The position numbers and the translations under genes were made by a program. 64,000 nucleotides of DNA from Spirosoma radiotolerans. Its GTDB lineage: Bacteria; Bacteroidota; Bacteroidia; Cytophagales; Spirosomataceae. The stretch spans positions 4,573,501 through 4,637,500 of the forward strand of contig NZ_CP010429.1 in the NCBI RefSeq assembly GCF_000974425.1, in the 5' to 3' direction. The notes below the pieces were generated by a model. The model had not been told where the DNA came from. It worked only from the letters and a program-made list of their open reading frames with translations, and searched no databases. The number at the start of each line of letters is the position of its first letter. Within the stretch, counting starts at the first letter, position 1. Below, piece by piece: positions 46,774 to 57,518 of the stretch.

Positions 46774-48069
46774 TTATTGCCCATTCCCCACTTTTCGAAT
46801 CTGGTAGAACAGCTTTTCGAGCAGACGACTGTCGTTGGTAATGATTTCAGCTGATGCAGCCATTCCGGTTTTATAGGCTAGTTGTTTTCCGTAGGTCGTT
46901 TGCAGCCCGGTTGGCAGGAGTACCTTGGTCAGGAACACGCTATCTTTGAGCGAGACATCGGCAATCCTGGCTATGCAACCCCGTACCGCTCCAAACTCCT
47001 GATAGGGGTAGCCTGCAAATTTTATCAGTACCGACTGCCCAACGGCCACCTTTCCCGAATTTTGCTGTGGAATACGGACTTCGCCGTAGTAATCGGTGCT
47101 ACGTGGAGCCACGTAGAATATCTCCTGATTTACAGCAACGGACTGATTTTCCTGCAACATTCCCTGAAAGGAAACGCGTCCATTTACAGGAGCAGTCATT
47201 ATGTATTTAAGTTTCCAGCTATCAGCAGCACTTTGCAGCGTGTTTAGTGCCTGTAAGAATTTATCGCGTTCTTCGGCCACCTGCTTGTCTAACTCCAGAA
47301 TTTCTTTCTGCTTGGCCCGTTGAGCTGTTAGGTTACTGATCAGAGCCGAAGCCGTTTGCTGATACGGCAGTTTACGAGCAATATTTTTACTTTCTTCGCG
47401 GGTTAATTCAAGCGGTGCAATGACTTTATCACGAGCCAACTGCGCCTGAATATCGTAATCTTGCTGGGCCAGCGCCATGTCGCGCGCCTGAATTTGATGC
47501 TGGGTTCGTAAATTGTCGGCCAATAGCGTTAGATCAACGATTTCCTGTTGGAGTAACCTCTTTTTCTGGCTGTAAAACCCATTGGCCAGATATGCCCTCA
47601 ACTGAATATGGGCCTGTTCGAAGGTTTGATAGGCATTTTGCAGTTCGCCAAGTTGGCTATAAGACGAGAGCGTCAATAGGTTTAAAGCCTCCAGATGCCC
47701 GCGACTGGCCAGCCCCCAGGCTTTACTTAGTTCTCCTGAAAGTCGTACTACATCGGCATGGTTGGCCGTACTTTCGAGATAAGCTAGTTGATCGCCCGAC
47801 CGAACAAGCTGCCCATCCTGCACCAGTAACCGAACCAGCTTCCCATCTGTACGAGTCAAAACTGCTTTGGGTGCGTTAGTCGATGTCAGTTTGAACGACG
47901 CGTGTATCAGATCAGGATAATGCACTAGCCAGGCACCAGCGAAAATTAAGGCAACAACCAGCAGCACAACCAGAATACCCCAGCGGAGCAACCAGGTTGG
48001 CGAACGCGCCATAAGCTCCTGCACCTCCTCAGAACGGAGTTCGGTAAAGTAGTCAGAACGGGGATTCAT
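46774..48069 (-). CDS. HlyD family secretion protein (membrane fusion protein)
   Basis: A 431-residue periplasmic adaptor. A short cytoplasmic N terminus is followed by one membrane helix (about residues 29-49, LRWGILVVLLVVALIFAGAWL). A split lipoyl/beta-barrel region (LTRTDGKLVRLLVQDGQLVRSGDQLAYLES) surrounds a long helical hairpin (about 110-285), and the barrel then continues with APVNGRVSFQGMLQENQSV and GEVRIPQQNSGKVAVGQSVLIK. Such adaptors link an inner-membrane ABC exporter to an outer-membrane channel. The C39-type exporter gene ends 43 nt upstream, so the two form one secretion machine. No TolC gene is present. Confidence 0.93.
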   Translation of the reverse strand: MNPRSDYFTELRSEEVQELMARSPTWLLRWGILVVLLVVALIFAGAWLVHYPDLIHASFKLTSTNAPKAVLTRTDGKLVRLLVQDGQLVRSGDQLAYLESTANHADVVRLSGELSKAWGLASRGHLEALNLLTLSSYSQLGELQNAYQTFEQAHIQLRAYLANGFYSQKKRLLQQEIVDLTLLADNLRTQHQIQARDMALAQQDYDIQAQLARDKVIAPLELTREESKNIARKLPYQQTASALISNLTAQRAKQKEILELDKQVAEERDKFLQALNTLQSAADSWKLKYIMTAPVNGRVSFQGMLQENQSVAVNQEIFYVAPRSTDYYGEVRIPQQNSGKVAVGQSVLIKFAGYPYQEFGAVRGCIARIADVSLKDSVFLTKVLLPTGLQTTYGKQLAYKTGMAASAEIITNDSRLLEKLFYQIRKVGNGQ

Positions 48070-48112
48070 TTGATTAAAATAATTTACAGGATTTTGTCAT
48101 GCAGACGGAAAA

Positions 48113-50527
48113 CTAAACGCTCAGCTCCAGTTGATTCTTCACCAGTCGCCAGTAGTCACCCCGTTTGGCTACAAGCTCGTCATGAGTGCCCACTTCTGTG
48201 ATAAGGCCTTTTTCCAGCACAACGATCTGGTCGGCATGACGAACGGTGCTGAGTCGGTGTGCCACGATTACGACAGTACGCTGGGGTTGGCTTTGTCTAT
48301 TATTTGGCCCACTACCCTGGAAAAACTCATTCAGATTCTGCACAATCGTGGCTTCGTTATTGGCGTCTAATGCATTCGTTGCCTCATCGAAAAAAATGTA
48401 CTGTGGATCTTTATAAACCGCCCGCGCAATTAAAATTCGTTGCCGCTGTCCCTGACTAATGCCGCTACCTTCGGCCCCGATTTTGGTATGTAATCCTGAG
48501 GGCAACGAGTCGACAAACGTGCGTAGGTTGGCTACCTGTACGGCATGGTCTAGTTTCAGGGCATCAATTCGCTCGGCACCCACGGCAATGTTGCGGGCAA
48601 TGGTATCTGAAAACAGGAAGCCGTCCTGCATGACAACTCCGCACTGGCTTCGCCAAAACGCATGACCAATGTTTCGCAAAGCAGCTTCCCTCACTCTTAT
48701 TTCACCCTTTGTTGGCTCGTAAAACCGCAAAAGTAATTTAAGTAAGGTAGTTTTGCCGCTGCCGCTCATGCCCACAATGGCGGTAGTTTTGCCATAAGGG
48801 ATAGCTAAGTCTATACCATGCAAAACAGGTTCATTGCCAGCACCGGGATACTGAAATGATAGGTTGTTCAGGTACAGACCACTTGCTTCGGGTAGCGTTG
48901 TAGCTACGGGGCGATCAATAGGCTCTTCATCCTGTAAGGTGTGAATTTCGTTGAGTCGTTCGAGACTAATTTTGGCATCCTGTAAACTCTGTACAAACCC
49001 AATCAGTTGCTCGATAGGGCTATTTAGTTGACCAATGATCTGTTGCATTGCCAGCATTGCCCCCAACGACAATTGCCCGTTGATAACCGATTGTGCTGCA
49101 AGAAAAGTGATGAAAATATTTTTACCCTCGTTGATGGCAAAAGCCCCTGCCTGCTGATACTGGCTTAGCGCCATACCCTTCATTTGCAGACGAAATAGCC
49201 GGGCCTGCAAGCGCTCCCACGCCCAGCGCATGGGCCGCTCGGCTCCAGCCAGCTTGATCTCCTGCATACCCTGAATGAGTTGCACCAGACTACTCTGGTT
49301 TTTTGCCGACACATCGAAGCGTTTATAATCCAATTTCCGACGTTGCCGCAAAAAGAGCATCACCCAGCCAATATAAAGCACACTCGACGCCATAAAAATG
49401 CCAAATATGCTCAAATTATACATGGCCAGTACCACCCCAAAAACAAGCAGATTAACCATCGAAAAAAGCACCGATAAGGTTTGTCCAGTCAGGAAACTTT
49501 CGATACGATGATGGTCGCCGATGCGCTGCATGATGTCGCCAAACTGCTTACTGTCGAAGAACGACACGGGCAACTTCATAAGTTTGATCAAAAAATCGGA
49601 CAGGATGCTGAGGTTAACACGGGTGCTGATGTGCAGCAGAGTCCAGCTTCGAATAAACTCGACCGACAGCCGCCCGGCCATCAGCATGAGTTGCGCCCCC
49701 AGCACCAGATATACAAATGGCAAATTCTGCGTATTGACGCCCACATCCACCACCGACTGGGTCAGAAACGGGAACAGCAATTGCAGCCCACTCCCAACGG
49801 CCAGTCCCAGCGCGAGTTGCACCAGCAACCGTTTATACTGCCACAAATAACTGAACACCCGCTCGAAACTATAGGCCGTAGCAGTTTCATCCTCCTGCTC
49901 AAAAAATGCGGGCGTAGGCTCCAGCAACAGCATAACCCCCTCATTCCTGCCGTCGGTCTGGGACGACAACCAATGCTCACAAAACTCCTTTGCTGTATAG
50001 GTTACTAACCCTTTGGCGGGGTCGGCTATATAAACAGTACCCTGGCGTGTGGTAGGCCGTGAATTGGTTTCTTTAGTTGGTGGCGATGCGATCCATCTAG
50101 TAGGCGGAAAGACAATTTCGCTTTCTTTATCACTAAAATCAAAAGAGACTAGTTTAGGCTGTACGTCATTGTCAAATTTATGAACTTTAGGTGGTTTTCG
50201 TCCTCCTTTAATGCGACTCATCCAGCCTCCATTTGCTCCTTTTATGTCGTAAACCACCACAAAGTGGTTCTGATCCCAATGAACAATACAGGGCAATGGT
50301 GCCTCGGTAGCTAACTTCTCGAAGGGAATCTTTATGCCCATCGTTCGAAAACCAATTCCCTCAGCCGCTTCCGAAATACCCAGTAATGAAACGCCCTCCT
50401 TCCCAATCTGCGATTTCTCCCGTAAGGTTTGCACCGTATATGAACGACCATAGTGCTTAGCCACCATTCGCAAGCAAGTAGGGCCGCAGTCCATTTGATC
50501 GAGTTGAGTATAATAGGGAAATTTCAT
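48113..50527 (-). CDS. Peptidase-containing ABC transporter (C39 + ABC)
   Basis: An 804-residue exporter that cleaves double-glycine leaders and exports the cores. The C39 peptidase has the catalytic Cys14 in MDCGPTCLR, His88 in DQNHFVVVYD and Asp169 in YIADPAKG. His and Asp are about 81 residues apart instead of the usual 16-20, owing to an inserted charged segment (about residues 95-160). Six membrane helices follow (about 230-510). The ATPase has Walker A GMSGSGKTTL, Q-loop VMQDGF, signature ISQGQRQR, Walker B YIFFDEATNALD and switch VAHRLST. Two precursors with matching GG leaders lie upstream on the same strand. Confidence 0.95.
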   Translation of the reverse strand: MKFPYYTQLDQMDCGPTCLRMVAKHYGRSYTVQTLREKSQIGKEGVSLLGISEAAEGIGFRTMGIKIPFEKLATEAPLPCIVHWDQNHFVVVYDIKGANGGWMSRIKGGRKPPKVHKFDNDVQPKLVSFDFSDKESEIVFPPTRWIASPPTKETNSRPTTRQGTVYIADPAKGLVTYTAKEFCEHWLSSQTDGRNEGVMLLLEPTPAFFEQEDETATAYSFERVFSYLWQYKRLLVQLALGLAVGSGLQLLFPFLTQSVVDVGVNTQNLPFVYLVLGAQLMLMAGRLSVEFIRSWTLLHISTRVNLSILSDFLIKLMKLPVSFFDSKQFGDIMQRIGDHHRIESFLTGQTLSVLFSMVNLLVFGVVLAMYNLSIFGIFMASSVLYIGWVMLFLRQRRKLDYKRFDVSAKNQSSLVQLIQGMQEIKLAGAERPMRWAWERLQARLFRLQMKGMALSQYQQAGAFAINEGKNIFITFLAAQSVINGQLSLGAMLAMQQIIGQLNSPIEQLIGFVQSLQDAKISLERLNEIHTLQDEEPIDRPVATTLPEASGLYLNNLSFQYPGAGNEPVLHGIDLAIPYGKTTAIVGMSGSGKTTLLKLLLRFYEPTKGEIRVREAALRNIGHAFWRSQCGVVMQDGFLFSDTIARNIAVGAERIDALKLDHAVQVANLRTFVDSLPSGLHTKIGAEGSGISQGQRQRILIARAVYKDPQYIFFDEATNALDANNEATIVQNLNEFFQGSGPNNRQSQPQRTVVIVAHRLSTVRHADQIVVLEKGLITEVGTHDELVAKRGDYWRLVKNQLELSV

Positions 50528-50580
50528 TAAAGTGGTGGCTTTGTTTACTGTTTTTTAGTCTTTAATTTAACAATTCCACC

Positions 50581-51039
50581 TCATTGTCTTAATATATATG
50601 TCGAAGGTATATCTGACATAGCTTCTGACCAATTTGTATGAATTGAACTATCCAAGGTACGGCTATAGAGTAGCAAGCTATATACACCATAACTTCTTAA
50701 CCGCGAACTCTGTATAGAACGGTCAACAGCGTATTCAACCCAACCTCCATTGTATTTAATGACACGATAAAACTCTTTTTTGTAAGAACGCCATATTTCC
50801 TTTTTATCATCAACATAGCCCCAAATTTCTTTTTTAAGAACTAGTTTCTTTTCACCATTAAAATAACTAACTATCAAATATTTACTAAAAGATCCCCTTG
50901 ATACAATTAGTTCAATTTTGTTTGTGGTATCTGGCTCAATAAGTATATCTTGGCTTTTTTGTAACAATCTCCATTGTGCATTTACAGCATTACAAAAAAT
51001 AAGGCCTCCTATTAAAGCAAAAACTTTCAGAAAATTCAT
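50581..51039 (-). CDS. Secreted protein of unknown function in the peptide-export island
   Basis: A 152-residue protein with a clear signal peptide (MNFLKVFALIGGLIFCNAVNA, cleaved before QWRLL). The mature part is beta-rich, with charged and aromatic strands (KIELIVSRGSFSKYLIVSYF, KKEIWRSYKKEFYRVIKYNGGWVEYA). I recognise no family. It lies between precursor peptide 1 and the exporter gene, on the same strand, and is AT-rich like the precursors. A role in protecting the producer or helping release the peptide would suit its position, but nothing in the sequence proves it. Confidence 0.7.
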   Translation of the reverse strand: MNFLKVFALIGGLIFCNAVNAQWRLLQKSQDILIEPDTTNKIELIVSRGSFSKYLIVSYFNGEKKLVLKKEIWGYVDDKKEIWRSYKKEFYRVIKYNGGWVEYAVDRSIQSSRLRSYGVYSLLLYSRTLDSSIHTNWSEAMSDIPSTYILRQ

Positions 51040-51187
51040 AATATACTTTTGTTTAAAGGCAAAAATAAGTACACAAAATCTATAGTACTCTCATTATACC
51101 TCTCTAGTCCAAGAAGTTCAATAAGAGTACTACAAAAAAATACCGCAATAACTAGTTTAATTTATTCTTTAGGGAAAAGCTTGCAAT

Positions 51188-51457
51188 TCATAGGCAATAC
51201 TGACCTTTGTTGCAGCTCGCTTGCCAATGATTATCATTTTGAAAATTAATCATTGACTCATCACCAGAAAAGCGGTACGCATTATCATTTGAATCAGTAC
51301 AACACCATCCATTAGTGGAAGGAGTATATCCGTCGCGTCCATTGTTATCAAGCCAATTCTGTAGAGATTCTGGTTCATATATATCCCCACCCTTGACAAC
51401 TCTCATTTGCTCTTTGGAGAGCTGGTTACCTGCAAACTGCATTAATATTTTTTTCAT
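51188..51457 (-). CDS. Double-glycine leader precursor peptide 1
   Basis: An 89-residue precursor. The 24-residue leader MKKILMQFAGN-QLSKEQMRVVKGG ends in Gly-Gly and matches the leaders used by C39 peptidase-type exporters in this phylum. The core after GG has 65 residues, acidic and Asn-rich, with four cysteines: WCC, ASC and QYC near the end. It shares the spaced motif CTxSNxxxYxxxGDxS with the second precursor. The likely product is a secreted small peptide with two disulfides, possibly glycosylated. Function (bacteriocin, signal or other) is unknown. Confidence 0.85.
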   Translation of the reverse strand: MKKILMQFAGNQLSKEQMRVVKGGDIYEPESLQNWLDNNGRDGYTPSTNGWCCTDSNDNAYRFSGDESMINFQNDNHWQASCNKGQYCL

Positions 51458-51493
51458 AATTGAAAAATGTGTTTAAATGAAATGATTGATATA

Positions 51494-51715
51494 TTATGAT
51501 TCGGCCAAATCCGTTTTCAGATGCCAATCGTTGATCGGCGGTATTACTACTCGTTTACGCTTTCTGGTCAAAGGGCGATTTGCTAATAGCCTGACTATTT
51601 TTTGTTTAATTTTTACTGGAGTTTCGTTTCGTAAATTTCCATAAAAACCCCACCCATTCGCTACCATCCGGGCGGTATTGCCGGGATGGTCTGCATCCAA
51701 GTTCAGCGGATAAGA
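51494..51715 (-). pseudogene. C-terminal remnant of a second glycosyltransferase gene
   Basis: The frame beginning at SYPLNLDADHPGNTARMV and continuing to DWHLKTDLAES matches the last 70 or so residues of the intact glycosyltransferase encoded at 52803-54137 (AYPLNLTADHPGNTARMV to DWQPKMDLAKSK). The upstream 370 residues are missing. Homology stops abruptly near 51715, where an unrelated frame runs into it. An ATG at 51700 could give a 68-residue product, but it would lack the catalytic core. The stop-to-precursor gap (36 nt) matches the intact copy (33 nt), so a whole cassette was duplicated. Confidence 0.85.
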
Positions 51716-51941
51716 CCAACCTATTAGCTCCTTTTTGTAGCGTTAATTTATCCCCAAAATAGTCTTCAAATTCTAGCTCATTATTACTATTCCCAGTAGT
51801 TAAAAGCACTACAACTGAATCTAGGAATAGAGCCTTTCGCGTCAAGGAATTAGCACTTTTACCCTCGACAATAGGTTGTTGATTTCTATAGCTAAAGAAG
51901 GCTATAATTAGTACTAAATTACTTACTGTAACTATCTTTAT
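51716..51941 (-). pseudogene. Truncated membrane-anchored frame, unknown origin
   Basis: An open frame of about 75 codons joins the glycosyltransferase remnant out of frame. It reads like the start of a membrane-anchored protein: a hydrophobic VTVSNLVLIIAFFSY, then a hydrophilic part including KSANSLTRKALFLDSVV and NNELEFEDYFGDKL. The first codon after the upstream stop is ATA; the only usual start is a TTG at 51845, after the hydrophobic segment. It looks like a lost N-terminal part of a gene fused by deletion to the remnant downstream. I cannot name the family. Confidence 0.45.
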
Positions 51942-52039
51942 TTAATTTGAGTTACTAGCCGCCCAATAGTAGGTGACTAGTAAGGTTTAGTTTAGCAAGA
52001 AGCACAACACTAATATGACTTCGCTCCGTAAATGTCATA

Positions 52040-52432
52040 TCAATCTATTCGAAGCAAAATGTGTCTTGTCCCATAAACATCATCTTTCTTTGAAATTAAT
52101 TGTACTATATGATAGCCATACTCTGTTTTAAAAGGAATTGATATTTCATCTATAGATAAGTTTAAAACAATGTTTCTGTATTCTCCAACATATCCCTCCA
52201 TTGTTGATGGCCTTAATGCCCCTCCTTCTTTATAGGAACCGGGGTCTTGAGAAAATTTTATAGCCATATTATCAAACTTCTCTCCATGTTTAAGCAATTC
52301 ATAAATTGTATAAATTTCCACCTTGGCTGTTGAATCATTATAAGTTTTATTGTTATTTGTTTCTCTGTTATAGGATTGAGCTTTGCCAAGTCCACTGATG
52401 AACACAAAAAAAATAAGTAGTCGGTATTTCAT
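52040..52432 (-). CDS. Small secreted parvulin-type peptidyl-prolyl isomerase
   Basis: A 130-residue protein with a signal peptide (MKYRLLIFFVFISGLGKAQ) and a single PpiC-type domain: GEKFDNMAIKFSQDPGSYKEGGAL, then EISIPFKTEYGYHIVQLISKK, and a final GTRHILLRID. The order of the last parts looks circularly shifted relative to usual parvulins, where the RHIL strand comes first, which suggests a permuted or partial domain. It lies between the two precursor genes on the same strand and may help the exported peptides fold or isomerise prolines. The upstream hairpin probably lowers its expression. Confidence 0.75.
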   Translation of the reverse strand: MKYRLLIFFVFISGLGKAQSYNRETNNNKTYNDSTAKVEIYTIYELLKHGEKFDNMAIKFSQDPGSYKEGGALRPSTMEGYVGEYRNIVLNLSIDEISIPFKTEYGYHIVQLISKKDDVYGTRHILLRID

Positions 52433-52476
52433 AATACTATTTATAATTACATAGAACTTTCAAAACAATTTCACTT

Positions 52477-52517
52477 AACTATATTGCGTATAAGTTAGGC
52501 TTATACGCAATATAGTT
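52477..52517 (-). terminator. 18-bp hairpin after precursor 2
   Basis: A perfect 18-bp inverted repeat (arm AACTATATTGCGTATAAG) with a 5-nt loop, 12 nt after the stop of precursor 2. No T tract follows. It may terminate most transcripts or protect the precursor mRNA, so that the peptide is made in excess over the downstream genes. Confidence 0.65.
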
Positions 52518-52529
52518 GACTATTGACTA

Positions 52530-52769
52530 TCAATAGTATCTACAATTGGTAACGCAAGGGCCACAGTAAATTAATGTAAACGTTTTAACGTCACTTGCAT
52601 CTCCATAGCCTGAGTATGATGCTCCGTTTGATGCAGTGCATGAAAAAGCTCTACTGCCACCACTACCACTACTATAAATACCTCCATAAGAGTCTGTCCC
52701 CCCTTTCACGGTCTTCATTTGCTCTTTTGAAAGCAGATTTCCAGCAAACTGCATTAAGATCTTCTTCAT
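52530..52769 (-). CDS. Double-glycine leader precursor peptide 2
   Basis: A 79-residue precursor. The leader MKKILMQFAGN-LLSKEQMKTVKGG differs from that of precursor 1 at 3 of 24 positions. The 55-residue core is rich in Ser, Gly and Tyr (SYGGIYSSGSGG, then FSCTASNGASYSGYGDASD) and ends with LIYCGPCVTNCRYY, for four cysteines in all. The Ser/Thr-rich part offers many possible acceptor sites for the adjacent glycosyltransferase, and the cysteines suit the nearby disulfide-forming system. The gene starts 33 nt after the glycosyltransferase stop. Confidence 0.87.
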   Translation of the reverse strand: MKKILMQFAGNLLSKEQMKTVKGGTDSYGGIYSSGSGGSRAFSCTASNGASYSGYGDASDVKTFTLIYCGPCVTNCRYY

Positions 52770-52802
52770 GATTGAAAAAATTGTTTAAGTTTAAAACTTG
52801 AT

Positions 52803-54137
52803 TTATTTCGATTTGGCCAAATCCATCTTCGGTTGCCAATCATCGATTGGCGGTACTTTCACTTGCTTCCTCTTTTCAACTAAGGATGAATCCGACAGCA
52901 GTTGCCGGATTTTTTGCCGGATTGTTGCCTCAGTTTCCCAGCGCAGGCTTCCCTGTATGCCCCAGCCGTTCGACACCATTCGGGCCGTATTGCCAGGGTG
53001 ATCGGCGGTTAAGTTTAGGGGGTACGCGAGTATTTTCACACCTGCCTCAACACATTCTAAAATAGAGTTTGTACCACCATGTGTAATCATCAAATCACAG
53101 TACGGCAGTAAGTCTGTTTGCGGAACCCAATCCATTAGATACACATTGGCAGGTATGTTTTCGGGTTTATTTGCAAATAGTCGTTTATCTGCTACGATCA
53201 GGTGCACAGTTGGCAAATCGCTAAAAGCGGCCATCAGTCTATTTAAAAAACGAGTAGCTGGCTTTGCATTTTCTTCGCTCAGTGTACCCAACGATGCATA
53301 TACTAATTGGATTTCTCCCCTTCCTCGTCTGGCTAAGAGGGGCTTAAACTGCTCCCAGAATTGCGAATGATCTCGCTCTGATTTACGTTGGTAGGGCTGA
53401 TAAAGAAAACGCTCATTCGGCCCCATTTTGTACCAGCTATATTCCATTTCTCGCGGCACCAGATGAATTATAGGCGCACCTAGTAAACCATCGTGCAGCA
53501 GGTTATACGGATTGATGTAGGCATCCAGTTGGATACCCATTTTACTCGTCACTCGCCGTAGAAAAAGCTGCTCATCAACGCCCAACAAGGCAATTTTCTT
53601 TCGCCAACTCCCATAGTAGTGCTTTACCATACACAGTTTCCACAACCACCAGGCATAGAGCCGATACCAGATAGTATCTTTAAAGGGTAGCGAACAGGTT
53701 AATGGCGGTATGCCCGGCACCCGATGCGTAGGCAATTTTGTATTGACAAGTGTACACTTCGGATAGGTAGATTTGAGTAGTAAGTAATAGAAATTTAGGT
53801 GCTCATCAATATAGAGTTCATCTGGTTGTATGGATTTACAAACATGTTGAACCGCAGCTACGGATGTTAGAAAATCGTGATACCTAGCCTTCTTGACTTT
53901 TTTCTCCAACGCACTCACAATAAACAACCCCACTGCCACACGCCAGTTAGCCACAACGATTTCCTGCATATAGTGCAACTCTACAAACTCGAACGCCTGG
54001 CTTTCAATATGCGTTTGTAAGTTTGGCGTACCCATAAACACAACCCGATAGCCCTGTCGGCGTAAACTATCGGCAAAACCAAAACAGATGTTGTAATGGC
54101 TCGGCACCGGAAACATGATAAACAGGGCCGTTTTCAT
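52803..54137 (-). CDS. Glycosyltransferase, GT-B fold, UGT/MGT-like
   Basis: A 444-residue enzyme with the GT1-type plan. The N-terminal acceptor domain starts MKTALFIMFPVPSHYNICFGFADSLRRQGYRVVFMG. The C-terminal donor domain has VYASLGTLSEENA, VYLMDWVPQTDLLPYCDLMITHGGTNSILECVEAGVKIL and AYPLNLTADHPGNTARMV, the nucleotide-sugar site of UGT-like enzymes. It may glycosylate the precursor peptides encoded directly downstream; the acceptor is inferred from position only. ATG 54137 overlaps the upstream VKOR stop by 4 nt (ATGA), showing coupling, and discounts the longer frame to 54188. Confidence 0.9.
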   Translation of the reverse strand: MKTALFIMFPVPSHYNICFGFADSLRRQGYRVVFMGTPNLQTHIESQAFEFVELHYMQEIVVANWRVAVGLFIVSALEKKVKKARYHDFLTSVAAVQHVCKSIQPDELYIDEHLNFYYLLLKSTYPKCTLVNTKLPTHRVPGIPPLTCSLPFKDTIWYRLYAWWLWKLCMVKHYYGSWRKKIALLGVDEQLFLRRVTSKMGIQLDAYINPYNLLHDGLLGAPIIHLVPREMEYSWYKMGPNERFLYQPYQRKSERDHSQFWEQFKPLLARRGRGEIQLVYASLGTLSEENAKPATRFLNRLMAAFSDLPTVHLIVADKRLFANKPENIPANVYLMDWVPQTDLLPYCDLMITHGGTNSILECVEAGVKILAYPLNLTADHPGNTARMVSNGWGIQGSLRWETEATIRQKIRQLLSDSSLVEKRKQVKVPPIDDWQPKMDLAKSK

Positions 54138-55285
54138 ACGTTTAGTTGCTGTTGAGTAGATGCTGGTTCGAGTGTATTGATCAGCCACTTTAAACCAACC
54201 AATCGGTACTGGGTTGGCAATTTATAGCCATTCACAAAGAGCGTTGGAGTAACTGTTATATTAGCGGCCAAACACCAGTCACGATGTCGATTAGCTACAG
54301 TTGCCCAGTCCATTGAATTAGCCATGACAGGGTACTTTTTAGCCCAGGCATCGAAATTCTTTTGGGGTTGTTCGTACCAATCTGCCAACGCCTGAGTTAC
54401 GTTGTCTTGTTGAGTAAGTGCCATTAGGTGTACAGCCACTTGAGTGGTTAGCCCACCAGTACCATCGCAGGTAAACATGAGATTGGCTTTTACAGTATAG
54501 TTGCGCACAAGCAGTTGTTCTAATTCCTTATGCACCTTTGCACACGGCCCGCAATAAGGGTTCGTCACCATCGTAATCGTATGTTCGGCATCAGGATTAC
54601 CCAGCACAATGGGGTATAGCTCGGCAGCAATGGGCGGCATTTGTGGTTGTTGACGTAGTAAGGCCTGGAACAGGTCGGGGTCTCGTTTCAAGCGCATCAA
54701 TTCGCTGTGTTCCTGCCTGCTTTTAGGTAAGCCCGCCAACAAGGGTTTTACTATGACCCATACTGTAGCGGGTATCAGGAAGGCAGTCAGTACGAATCCA
54801 TAGGGTTGCCACAGGCCCGGCCACATGGTGAGTTGAGTTATAGCCAGCATGCCCTCTAGTAACAACACTAGTTGCACACCCAAACACAAAGGGCACCATT
54901 GCCGTAATACAAAACCCTGATAATAAACTGAAAACACAGTATACGGCAAGACCAATAGCGCAACCCAATGTAGCAGTTGGAGCACCGACGGGCTTAGGGA
55001 ACTAAGCCATACTGCCAGGAAACCTCCAGAAAAATATAGCAAGCCAACATCGGCCCAAGGGAGCCAGCCCCAGAGCTTGGCTGCTGGTGAGTTCAGTACA
55101 TCGTCGCAGTTGGTTTTGCTGTTAATCCGGCAAAGGCGGTCGGTGAGGGCATTTTTGTTGCCTAGCTGTTTGGCTACCAGTAAGCTACTGAGCAGTACAC
55201 CCATTGATTTGGTTAGCAGTAGAAACCAATCTGGCGTTGTAAGATTCTTCCGTACACTCAGGAGCACAAACACAGCAATGAGCAA
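54134..55285 (-). CDS. VKOR-DsbA fusion, disulfide-bond forming (C-terminal part of a split gene)
   Basis: A 383-codon open frame. The N-terminal half has four to five membrane helices and the VKOR signature: the cysteine pair in LCRINSKTNCDDVL and the CxxC in RQWCPLCLG. The C-terminal half is a thioredoxin/DsbA-like domain with NPYCGPCAKVH and the cis-Pro region VTPTLFVNGY. Together these would oxidise thiols in exported peptides and pass electrons to quinone. There is no ATG at the beginning (TTG 55285 only), and the preceding frame ends in mid-helix, so this is probably the second part of one protein. It overlaps the glycosyltransferase start by 4 nt. Confidence 0.85.
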   Translation of the reverse strand: MLIAVFVLLSVRKNLTTPDWFLLLTKSMGVLLSSLLVAKQLGNKNALTDRLCRINSKTNCDDVLNSPAAKLWGWLPWADVGLLYFSGGFLAVWLSSLSPSVLQLLHWVALLVLPYTVFSVYYQGFVLRQWCPLCLGVQLVLLLEGMLAITQLTMWPGLWQPYGFVLTAFLIPATVWVIVKPLLAGLPKSRQEHSELMRLKRDPDLFQALLRQQPQMPPIAAELYPIVLGNPDAEHTITMVTNPYCGPCAKVHKELEQLLVRNYTVKANLMFTCDGTGGLTTQVAVHLMALTQQDNVTQALADWYEQPQKNFDAWAKKYPVMANSMDWATVANRHRDWCLAANITVTPTLFVNGYKLPTQYRLVGLKWLINTLEPASTQQQLNV

Positions 55286-55785
55286 CAGGCTAGCAGCACA
55301 AACGGACCTCGCAGATTTTCCAATAGTTCGTATTTACGCTTCGTGGCATAACCAGTTTCGCCCCATTGGTCGGCAGTTTCGCCTGCGCGGCCCTCCGCCA
55401 GCAATACCACACCCGACCAGTTCTTTTCAAAGTCTGTTAATGCTTCTATCCTGCGTCCCTGTTCATTATCAGTATAGGTAATGGTATCGCCCTGAAGGGA
55501 GGTTACTAATACATACCACCCGTTATTTTTTCGTAAGTGGGCTACAAAAGGCAAGGGTAATTCACGCAGTTGCTCAACGGTATTTAACTGCAAGCCTGTG
55601 TTGGCAACCTGCCAGCCCGTGAGCACATCGCTTAGGCTCAGTAGGCTAGGAAAGTCTGGATGTTGCTCCAATGATTCCCAAACGGTTGCCCTCGTTACGT
55701 TAGCTCGTAGTCCTTTCAGGAGCGCGTAAAGGGTAGCGACTGCATTATCGTCGGTCGTGTTAGATAGCGTGTCGAATAAAGCCAT
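55258..55785 (-). CDS. C39-like domain protein (N-terminal part of the split VKOR fusion)
   Basis: A 175-residue frame starting at ATG 55785. Residues 1-130 resemble an inactive C39-type domain (WESLEQHPDFPSLLSLSDVLTGWQVAN, LPFVAHLRKNNGWYVLVTS); the catalytic cysteine and histidine are absent. It ends within a hydrophobic stretch, LRGPFVLLACCSLLCLC. Shifting to the -1 frame there continues as SLLLIAVFVLLSVRKN, into the VKOR part. Fused C39-like-VKOR-thioredoxin proteins are known beside GG-leader peptides in Bacteroidota, so a frameshift, sequencing error or programmed slip is likely. The domain may bind leader peptides. Confidence 0.75.
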   Translation of the reverse strand: MALFDTLSNTTDDNAVATLYALLKGLRANVTRATVWESLEQHPDFPSLLSLSDVLTGWQVANTGLQLNTVEQLRELPLPFVAHLRKNNGWYVLVTSLQGDTITYTDNEQGRRIEALTDFEKNWSGVVLLAEGRAGETADQWGETGYATKRKYELLENLRGPFVLLACCSLLCLCS

Positions 55786-56063
55786 GCTCAAAGCAGTTGT
55801 TGGCCCAAAAGTGCAGACTAAATCGGCTCGTTGTTATTCACTTTTTATTCAACTTTATTCATTTTCTATTCAATCAATGGCGCTAACCTATACAATTATA
55901 TAGTAAATAATTACTCACCTCTAGGATAACTAATTAAAAGTCAAAGGCTTAACAAAAATGGTATTTTTGTATTCTAAAATTGACAAAATATATAGTTTCT
56001 AAAAATTAGCGTTTATTTGTTGCGGCTTCACAACATGAATTAATCGTGTCGGCCACCCGTTTC

Positions 56064-56417
56064 ATGATGACTTTATCCGCCAACATTAGGCAATTCCGCA
56101 AAGAGAAAGGGCTATCTCAGGAGTACATGGCTGATAGGCTTTGCATGAGTCAGCCTACCTACAACCGGCTCGAACGGAACAGCCTCGCCTGCACCAAACG
56201 GTTAGTACAACTAGCCAATGCCTTAGGTACCACGCCCGACAATCTACAGAACTACCATCTGACTAATTCTACGCAAACGGAGGCCGAAGAAAAAGATCGA
56301 CGGCTTCGGGAACAGGAAGTAAAAATTAATTTTTTAAGCCGCTATGTTCGCTATTTGCAGGAGACCTGGCAGGCGTATGGCAAGGGCGATTTGCCTGCTG
56401 AGAATTCGCTTAAGTAA
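56064..56417 (+). CDS. XRE family helix-turn-helix regulator
   Basis: A 117-residue DNA-binding protein. The HTH is ANIRQFRKEKGLSQEYMADRLCMSQPTYNRLERN (about residues 5-38), typical of Cro/CI-like domains. The C-terminal part (about 75-105) is charged and probably a coiled coil, EEKDRRLREQEVKINFLSRYVRYLQETW. It is transcribed away from the VKOR-glycosyltransferase-precursor unit across a 278-bp AT-rich gap, so it is the natural candidate to control the peptide island. ATG 56064 is chosen over a GTG at 56046. Confidence 0.88.
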   Translation: MMTLSANIRQFRKEKGLSQEYMADRLCMSQPTYNRLERNSLACTKRLVQLANALGTTPDNLQNYHLTNSTQTEAEEKDRRLREQEVKINFLSRYVRYLQETWQAYGKGDLPAENSLK

Positions 56418-56505: not shown

Positions 56506-57201
56506 TCACTCTGCCTGTAGTGGGCTTCCTTTCAGCTTCAGATCCTTCACCCGCTCTCGCACGTTTCGCATGAAGGTTCTACCCGGGTCTGTTTTTTCAG
56601 TCAGGTAATTCGGGTCGGTTTCTTTCCAGAGTGGCGTGCCTCTGAAATCTTTGTATTCGTAATGGCCAATCAGGTATTCTATATTATACTTTTGTTTCAA
56701 GTAGCGGACTAGTTGCACATTGGCCTCTATCTGCGCGTTTGTCAGGTCATCGCTTCCTACATTTTCGATACCAATCGCGCAATAATTCAGCCCAATACAA
56801 TGACGGGCAAAGGTGGTATCGGACAAAAGCCGATAAATAGTCCCATCGCGATCAACCAGAAACGGAACCGCCGTATTTAGTTTACTAGCCGCCTGAAGAT
56901 CAGCCCGGCCAGGCAGCCTGCTAGGATTAAACACATTAAACGTCGAATCAAGCGTCGGAATGGCGGTCCAGTGCAGCACAATCATCTTGGGCTTTATGTA
57001 AGGCTCCGTCTGCTTAATCCCATGTCGTCGAGCCAGGTAATCAAGCGAAAGCTGTTTACGCTCTTCATCAAAAACAATAGGCTTGTCGAGTATTTGGATG
57101 GGCGCTTTCTGGGCAACACTAAACGTGAGTGGTGAAATAACCACAAAGAGCAGAAGAAATACTTTCTGCAGAGAAAGGGATAAACCAGCACAAAGATTCA
57201 T
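56506..57201 (-). CDS. N-acetylmuramoyl-L-alanine amidase, Ami_2 type
   Basis: A 231-residue secreted peptidoglycan amidase. ATG 57201 gives a signal peptide (MNLCAGLSLSLQKVFLLLFVVISPLTFSVAQ). The zinc-binding amidase domain has VLHWTAIPTLDS (first histidine), ARHCIGLNYCAIGIENVG, and LIGHYEYKD with the second histidine. LWKETDPNYLTEKTDPG follows. The enzyme cleaves the amide between muramic acid and the stem peptide, in cell-wall recycling or remodelling. It is convergent with the XRE regulator gene and no functional link to the peptide island is visible. Confidence 0.9.
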   Translation of the reverse strand: MNLCAGLSLSLQKVFLLLFVVISPLTFSVAQKAPIQILDKPIVFDEERKQLSLDYLARRHGIKQTEPYIKPKMIVLHWTAIPTLDSTFNVFNPSRLPGRADLQAASKLNTAVPFLVDRDGTIYRLLSDTTFARHCIGLNYCAIGIENVGSDDLTNAQIEANVQLVRYLKQKYNIEYLIGHYEYKDFRGTPLWKETDPNYLTEKTDPGRTFMRNVRERVKDLKLKGSPLQAE

Positions 57202-57518
57202 AGCGGACTCGGTTGAACAAGGGCAAAGAAAGAAAACCGTAGCAGATATCGACAATTTTCTTTTTTACCGTTACAAGAATTTCGTTAATGGATAAGTAAG
57301 TCAGTGATAGGCCCCGTTAAATCGGCCAGGGTCAGCAACCAGAAATTCGTTGTACAGTAGACTGGCGTCTAGCCATTTGAATTATAATTATTTGAAGTCA
57401 TAACCGCTTAAACGGACTAATTAGAGGATATCCGTTGACTCTTTTACGATGTCACGCACAAAATCGTTGCATTAACTGTTATCCCTCTAGCTGAGCCTAA
57501 TCCGCCTAGCTGTTGGCT
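57202..57518. other. Intergenic region, 317 bp
   Basis: The region between the divergent amidase and isochorismate synthase genes. I find no gene, strong hairpin or clear promoter here. Both promoters must lie in it. Confidence 0.5.

Follow-up and report, generated by a model that had tools for sequence, protein, structure and literature searches.

What does a glycosyltransferase (GT) do among the genes for a disulfide-rich peptide? The question is raised by a 64-kb stretch of the Spirosoma radiotolerans genome, here called the window, in which an island at positions 46774 to 56417 brings together two double-glycine (GG)-leader peptide precursors, a C39-like domain protein, a VKOR-DsbA oxidoreductase, a GT, and a C39 peptidase-ABC exporter with a HlyD adaptor (Table 1). 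We suggest, with a probability of roughly three in four, that this island makes glycosylated, disulfide-bonded ribosomally synthesized and post-translationally modified peptides (RiPPs), which would probably be antibacterial. On the evidence of gene sequence and genomic context, the GT-B enzyme likely glycosylates the peptide.

The pathway might run as follows. The two four-Cys precursors, seen as genes, would be produced; the C39-like domain, which is without the protease Cys, would keep the leader at the membrane; and VKOR-DsbA, with its complete Cys relay, would oxidize the core Cys and pass electrons to quinone. A cytosolic GT1-type GT-B enzyme would then put a sugar on the core, our best guess at the acceptor being a Tyr or a neighboring Ser/Thr at the core N-terminal end. 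Finally, the C39-ABC exporter would cleave after GG and export the product together with HlyD, as is known for these families.

Conservation and modularity of the island

The original prediction placed these genes on one strand in close order, with an XRE regulator divergent at the head; all are present, on the minus strand with the XRE gene on the plus strand, and their families were confirmed by profiles. The most likely start of the GT is ATG 54137 (the GTG 54188 of the open reading frame [ORF] list falls within VKOR), and with it the proposed 4-nucleotide (nt) ATGA overlap between the GT start and the VKOR stop was borne out, as was the 33-nt gap between the GT stop and the start of precursor 2. 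Both precursors have a leader of the form MKKILMQFAG..LSKEQM..VKGG, 24 amino acids (aa) long, followed by cores of 55 and 65 aa with four Cys each, and both match TIGR04149 and leader_Chryseo weakly, below cut-off.

The GT has the complete donor-site HGG...E of GT1/GT-B enzymes and keeps His14 and Asp111; we take the donor-site signature HGG..S..E...D and the catalytic roles of His14 and its Asp partner to be GT1 features. In an alignment of 14 sequences, His14, Asp111, His353, Gly354-355, and Glu361 are invariant, and Asp379 is nearly so. The GT-B fold claimed beforehand agrees with the structure model (mean pLDDT, 87.7; pTM, 0.86), which matches GT-B/GT1 enzymes: the 50 matches listed by Foldseek comprise UGT, macrolide-type, and similar GTs at 14 to 20% identity, with UGT202A2, Kcn28, and OleD among the best from the PDB.

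The host genome (7,029,352 bases in one contig) belongs to the same genus group as relative G196 (G-numbers denote genomes of relatives and L-numbers denote loci). Among the 222 genomes searched in its own family, 41 have a relative of the GT (E value of 1e-20 or better) and 63 have the C39-like-VKOR-DsbA oxidoreductase (CVD). Strong GT matches (1e-70 or better) came from 21 of 390 genomes sampled across the order, 4 of 395 sampled across the class, 18 of 295 in the family of G521, and 2 of 251 in the family of G643. We read neighborhoods spanning at most 20 kb at 40 GT sites and another 60 sites, mostly CVD, and annotated them by profile. Islands in the order CVD, GT, GG precursor were assigned to class A; those in the order GT, CVD, GG precursor, whose GT is more distant and whose leader differs, to class B; and those with CVD without GT to class N.

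The neighborhood search proposed originally found relatives across genera that repeat the order C39-VKOR-DsbA, GT, precursor, and, farther on, C39-ABC and HlyD. The GT lies within 150 nt of the CVD in 36 of 41 same-strand pairs. Of the 29 class N loci, 15 have a detected precursor (the other 14 GT-free CVD loci gave none), and in 13 of these 15 it begins 21 to 51 nt after the CVD, the exceptions being L127 (94 nt) and L106 (298 nt). Since the class N precursor directly follows the CVD, the class A GT holds the slot between CVD and precursor. Its gap to the next precursor is 12 to 56 nt in 12 of 17 class A loci (the window, L034 to L037, L041 with a GT cut by the contig end, L044 to L047, L051, and L081), 100 nt in L053, and 352 nt in L043; in L048, L049, and L050, the precursor does not follow the GT. 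L037 combines a CVD that groups with class B with the GT, leader, and Tyr1 of class A, a mix which suggests that GT and precursor travel together. On plasmid NZ_CP089543.1 of Spirosoma oryzicola, the genes for VKOR, GT, a GT2-type enzyme, exporter, and HlyD lie close together, flanked by a tyrosine recombinase and, at the opposite end, by a recombinase; the precursor between GT and GT2 is present in the DNA (L036) and unannotated in the gene table. Among ten later loci from the families of G521 and G643, only L228 has a CVD, accompanied by a Cys-rich GG-type precursor, exporter, HlyD, GT1, and GT2.

Across the 7.03-Mb host genome, precursor-profile matches (E up to 0.1) number only two, both in the island, and UDPGT-family matches number two, one of them in the island. 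That both precursor matches fall in the island, together with the order repeated in relatives, indicates that the linkage is not due to chance; chance co-location was rejected on the counts for the precursor profile, the UDPGT family, and the GT-CVD spacing. The island is real, conserved, and modular, and we infer that, within a wider family of C39-VKOR-DsbA islands, the GT is a tailoring cassette that may or may not be present. In 7 of 22 class C/O loci scanned (L055, L057, L060, L064, L065, L066, and L159, with L063 uncertain), a related GT1 is accompanied by C39-type ABC exporters and by short, hydrophobic GG peptides resembling bacteriocins, with no VKOR; the GT clade therefore extends beyond disulfide peptides.

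Related GT1 genes were seen in other settings as well. A grasp-with-spasm (graspetide) island (L196:8853-15787) contains one together with GG peptides that have repeated SYD/YDT motifs, a third peptide of this type being located at positions 1773 to 1943 of L196. In L199:2677-19900, several GT1 genes and a GT fragment alternate with small signal-bearing Cys peptides, and on a Flammeovirga pectinis plasmid (L217:4485-7356) a related GT1 gene overlaps a LanC-family gene.

The oxidoreductase scaffold and its transferase partners

In most relatives read, the C39-like and VKOR-DsbA parts form one fused gene, which is split in the window and in G191. A programmed frameshift joining the two parts was judged unlikely because these two splits require opposite frame changes at the same spot. 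Catalytic C39 peptidases have a Cys in an N-terminal motif; the C39-like domain contains no Cys in the window protein or, past their likely starts, in eight aligned relatives. The profile of the fused relatives matches the C39 portion of bacteriocin ABC transporters with solved structures (E of about 5e-4). The VKOR-DsbA relay is complete (a loop pair, WCPLC, and YCGPC), and its six Cys are invariant in eight relatives.

The orientation of this scaffold bears on where the peptide would be modified. Among 70 CVD proteins, six hydrophobic segments were identified, each in 64 to 70 of them. The net charge (Lys plus Arg minus Asp plus Glu) is +1.96 before helix 1 and +2.27 after helix 6, and the values for the stretches between helices are, in order, −0.27, +0.53, −0.16, +1.67, and −0.46. 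From this alternating charge pattern in relatives, both ends of the CVD, the VKOR Cys sites, and the DsbA domain are predicted to be cytosolic, the opposite of canonical bacterial VKOR-DsbA proteins, which have five membrane helices and redox sites facing the periplasm. Judged by eye, the VKOR proteins without a C39-like part in L203, L204, and L211 follow the canonical pattern, and the one in L210 has no clear fit. An AlphaFold model of the Fibrella aquatilis CVD, of modest confidence (mean pLDDT, 70.9; pTM, 0.38), contains six membrane-length helices, the fourth of which is broken. The window VKOR gene begins inside the first helix, so its own topology could differ.

Of the 74 CVD loci that we tallied, a GT1-type gene is located within 6.5 kb in 45 and is absent from that range in 29, a split that is not a prevalence because many loci came via the GT search. 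The tally leaves out L083 (a duplicate), L054, L111, L158, and CVD matches of 100 bits or less and counts L105, L113, and L118 as GT1 bearing on partial or split GT frames. A GT2-type gene, which in these relatives we take to be GT-A, occurs in 9 of the 45 GT1-bearing loci and in 0 of the 29 others (Fisher P = 0.0099), where the nine include a fusion in L143 and, in L140, a GT2 gene on the other strand.

In the L143 fusion (L143:9047-11449), the C terminus of the CVD is joined to a GT2 domain (PF00535; E = 3.8e-7), and in L147 (L147:7892-10381) it is joined to a PLOD-type glycosyltransferase domain (PF25342; E = 1.1e-29). Both fusions have lost the DsbA CXXC. The two GG peptides read in L143 and the one in the related L069 are Cys-free, and the one in L147 has a single Cys; a second small candidate in L147 has no GG and has two Cys in its putative core. 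With little there to oxidize, the scaffold seems to have been retained for the transferase, and this argues that it unites the transferase with the precursor. Further, a sugar transferase at the CVD C terminus requires nucleotide sugars, which implies that this terminus is cytosolic. As originally proposed, glycosylation and oxidation would be parts of a single peptide pathway, a view well supported at the level of genomic context by the repeated gene order, the position of the class A GT, the GT2 partners, and the fusions.

A more specific scheme would be a cytosolic platform on which leader docking, oxidation by an inverted VKOR-DsbA, and Tyr glycosylation by the GT-B enzyme all precede export, with a GT2 partner or a scaffold-fused transferase contributing to the sugar step alongside GT-B in relatives. 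We advance this scheme tentatively and regard it, taken whole, as doubtful.

The candidate sugar acceptor

A free Cys, as expected from a sublancin-like odd Cys number, was considered as the acceptor and is not supported: Cys counts are mostly even in all three groups, and even in 25 of 28 class A cores, which makes such an acceptor unlikely. The residue that does follow the GT is Tyr. A Tyr is present among core positions 1 to 8 in 26 of 28 class A peptides (17 loci), compared with 9 of 22 in class B and 3 of 19 in class N; class A differs from class N at P = 8e-8 (Fisher; 16 of 17 versus 3 of 15 by loci, P = 3e-5) and from all others (12 of 41) at P = 8.9e-8, values that apply to a residue and an eight-position window picked after looking at the data. 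The lowest P values for other residues in these positions are 0.023 (Gly) and 0.049 (Ala, depleted), and no enrichment of Ser/Thr was found in GT-linked cores (P > 0.3). These counts leave out peptides with a profile E above 0.2, leaders longer than 34 aa, cores shorter than 20 aa, locus L054, and near-identical cores within one group. Among loci fetched later, the pattern holds in L193 (4 of 4 peptides), L195 (1 of 1, at position 8), and L228 (1 of 1, the core being counted from its GA site, as there is no GG).

The L193 island also contains a sulfotransferase (PF03567; L193:2976-3749), and all four of its GG peptides have Tyr directly after the leader; Tyr sulfation is possible there.

Alternative readings

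Several observations weigh against a GT that modifies the peptide, or against Tyr as its target. On the CVD tree, the class A label takes 11 changes, at least 8 of which are forced by supported branches, and a kinship-controlled Tyr test on 8 independent pairs is not significant (median P = 0.125; on average, Tyr goes with the GT in 5.0 pairs and against it in 0.4 and shows no difference in 2.6). Both Xanthocytophaga peptides have no Tyr in the first eight residues, and neither of the two peptides of L081, of which L194 is a second copy, follows the pattern. A GT2 partner is missing in 36 of the 45 GT1-bearing loci, the window included: no GT2-family match was obtained among nine island proteins scanned, and three GT2 profiles built from relatives found nothing near the window CVD. 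In NCBIfam, the GT has matches below cut-off to the MGT, macrolide-inactivating, and OleI self-immunity families. Besides L228, the later loci include nine distant GTs (below 310 bits), and around six of these nine (L229, L230, L232, L233, L235, and L237) profiles detected no exporter or GG peptide.

The strongest evidence against a strict peptide role is provided by four orphan GTs (L038, L039, L040, and L042, from Fibrisoma and G212; three genomes). In a quick GT tree without bootstrap, class A does not form a single clade; a well-supported group of 27 rows comprises 25 from class B plus L149 (A by position) and L160 (no CVD). The orphans lie inside the class A part, beside the clade of the window, in a set of nine rows (SH-aLRT, 97), and no CVD, C39 exporter, or GG peptide was detected within about 20 kb around them; L038, earlier labeled C on an ATPase match, is treated as an orphan because by eye that match is not a C39 exporter. 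The original prediction had held that the glycopeptide reading fails if, in relatives without a precursor, the GT family acts on lipids or small molecules. In part this is borne out, as four GTs of the same clade have no precursor detected close by, but they nest inside a peptide-linked clade, which makes loss of the neighborhood likelier.

Within glycosylation, the sugar might be placed on Ser, Thr, or Asn or at the peptide ends, with Tyr reflecting the history of exporter or leader. We give this version a substantial minority share of the odds, which overlaps that of the main explanation. In cores close to that of the window, the Tyr is surrounded by many Ser, Thr, and Gly residues, Gly is nominally enriched, 9 of 22 class B peptides have the Tyr, related GTs elsewhere stand beside hydrophobic peptides, and the kinship-controlled test is not significant; against this, Tyr is the sole strongly enriched residue in the first eight, and all 6 peptides of L193, L195, and L228 fit.

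An immunity function, in which the GT glycosylates an envelope component of the producer or inactivates the toxin in the cell, as OleI/Mgt-like enzymes do with macrolides, appears improbable. It would account for the below-cut-off family relatives and the orphans, and no dedicated immunity gene was recognized among the window proteins scanned, but in two relatives the C39-like scaffold carries a fused sugar-transferase domain, GT2 partners occur at GT1 loci alone, and the class A GT goes with the core N terminus. Very unlikely is a plain bacteroidetocin-like disulfide island whose GT is a neighbor acting on surface glycans or small molecules, since the order and short spacing recur over many genera, transferases are fused to the CVD, and the plasmid copy has GT and GT2 inside the set, even though 29 of 74 CVD loci have no GT1 nearby and bacteroidetocin loci, in the portion of PMC6671954 available, consist of peptide, thiol oxidoreductase, and C39-type ABC exporter.

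Origin of the precursor cassettes

Directly upstream of precursor 1 lies a feature that the original prediction had missed, a GT remnant of 73 codons of the C terminus. At the nucleotide level it is 82.6% identical to the 3' end of the G196 GT versus 67.4% identical to the island's own GT; for this reason, local duplication was dropped as the source of precursor 1, and import or recombination of a cassette is preferred. In the close relative G191 (L034), two extra precursors have GT 3'-end stretches upstream as well. To judge from these remnants, precursor cassettes appear to spread through recombination that takes a GT gene end along. A TlpA-like remnant overlaps and precedes the GT remnant, its matching open frame spanning 51609 to 51941.

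Organization of the island

The C39-like gene starts at ATG 55785 (TTG 55791 in the ORF list). The islands of G191 (L034), G112 (L044), and G196 (L054) likewise have an XRE-type gene at their head. NCBIfam and Pfam scans of the small secreted protein at 50581 to 51039 gave no match; as a guess, it is a candidate for immunity or a chaperone.

Table 1. Features of the peptide island, from its head to its end (window coordinates)
Feature	Position	Strand	Basis
XRE-type regulator, at head, divergent	56046..56417	+	ORF list; RstR-like helix-turn-helix match below cut-off
C39-like domain protein, proposed leader-docking module	55258..55785	-	PF03412, E 3.7e-15
VKOR-DsbA, probable quinone-linked thiol oxidase	54134..55285	-	PF07884, E 2.6e-18; PF13462 (Thioredoxin_4), E 4.5e-9
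GT1-type (GT-B) glycosyltransferase, ATGA-coupled to VKOR-DsbA	52803..54137	-	PF00201, E 1.4e-15; UDPGT/EryCIII-like_C
GG-leader precursor 2, core TDSYGGIYSSGSGG..., four Cys	52530..52769	-	Leader common to relatives
Small secreted parvulin-type prolyl isomerase (Rotamase)	52040..52432	-	PF13616, E 9.7e-18; N-terminal signal by eye
TlpA-like thioredoxin gene remnant, limits approximate	51716..51941	-	Matches L034 TlpA-like protein, E 3e-8
Second GT gene, 3'-end remnant	51494..51715	-	63% aa identity, residues 388-460 of 461-aa GT frame
GG-leader precursor 1, core DIYEPESLQNW..., four Cys	51188..51457	-	Precursor-profile match
Small secreted protein, no family	50581..51039	-	N-terminal signal by eye
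C39 peptidase-ABC exporter	48113..50527	-	PF03412, E 7.6e-31; ABC domains
HlyD-type adaptor (HlyD_3)	46774..48069	-	PF13437, E 7e-13; TIGR01843 below cut-off

Beyond the XRE gene, a putative secreted amidase-like protein was noted by eye at window positions 56506 to 57255. A further C39 peptidase match in the same genome (G000:C1:6922793-6923191) lies in an exporter-like open frame of 762 aa.

Comparison with known systems

No description of this island system was found in the open-licence PubMed Central literature. In the portions available, "glycosyl" and "VKOR" do not occur in PMC8939145, nor "C39" and "bacteriocin" in PMC4555120. Singh and Rao (2021), on glycocins beyond Firmicutes, may list Bacteroidota clusters, going by its citation in a portion of PMC9576775, and a survey of Bacteroidales RiPPs, in the part available, reports glycosyltransferases in two clusters and GlyS-type matches in some strains (PMC10352776). 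What appears to be new here is that Tyr in the first eight core residues tracks the class of the nearest GT and that the oxidoreductase is predicted to face the cytosol. A modular Bacteroidota family, with one plasmid-borne case, that joins GT1, GT2, or PLOD-type transferases to a leader-docking disulfide oxidase would point to new peptide glycosyltransferases and to antibacterial candidates from Gram-negative producers. Were that oxidase to face the cytosol, quinone-driven disulfide formation on a secreted peptide would take place ahead of membrane crossing.

Among known enzymes, OleD, Kcn28, and UGT202A2 resemble the island GT in fold and donor-site motif. They differ from the peptide role proposed here in that they act on small molecules, as their PDB entry titles likewise suggest.

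Bacteroidetocins, Bacteroidota peptides proposed as class IIf, have 15-aa leaders and 42-aa cores with four Cys, and the stem "glycosyl" does not occur in the portion of the paper available (PMC6671954). The island likewise has GG-leader four-Cys peptides with a thiol oxidoreductase and a C39-ABC exporter beside the peptide gene, but its leaders of 24 aa and cores of 55 to 65 aa depart from the lengths of the founding peptides.

Cacaoidin, a lanthidin, is a RiPP with a disaccharide on Tyr, and its cluster encodes GTs of the GT2 and GT4 families, GT1 not being among the three GTs named in the available part of PMC8068269. It differs from the island further in its Streptomyces origin and lanthionine-type chemistry. 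To our knowledge, cacaoidin is without a disulfide system. The original prediction of a different kind of system on the ground of a GT-B enzyme was overstated in view of the GT2 partners in relatives and of the GT4 enzyme of cacaoidin, presumably GT-B as well.

The closest parallel is with glycocins. Glycocin enzymes are SunS-type S/O-glycosyltransferases of the GT2/GT-A kind. Glycocins also have two nested disulfides, and the cores in the window contain four Cys each. As far as the consulted portions go, glycocin clusters combine a Cys-rich precursor, a C39-type ABC exporter, thiol oxidoreductases, and a GT (PMC6405829 and PMC12457901), known glycocins carry their sugar on Cys, Ser, or Thr, and the experimentally characterized ones come from Bacillota (PMC9576775). 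The island shares with sublancin, glycocin F, pallidocin, enterocin F4-9, and thermoglycocin the Cys-rich precursor, thiol oxidoreductase, GT, and C39-type ABC exporter, but its GT is GT1/GT-B, its oxidoreductase is a C39-like-VKOR-DsbA protein, the Cys numbers of class A cores are mostly even, and its host belongs to the Gram-negative Bacteroidota. With a GG-leader Cys-rich precursor and a C39-ABC exporter but no SunS-type GT2, the island works like a glycocin system without being a member of that class by its transferase.

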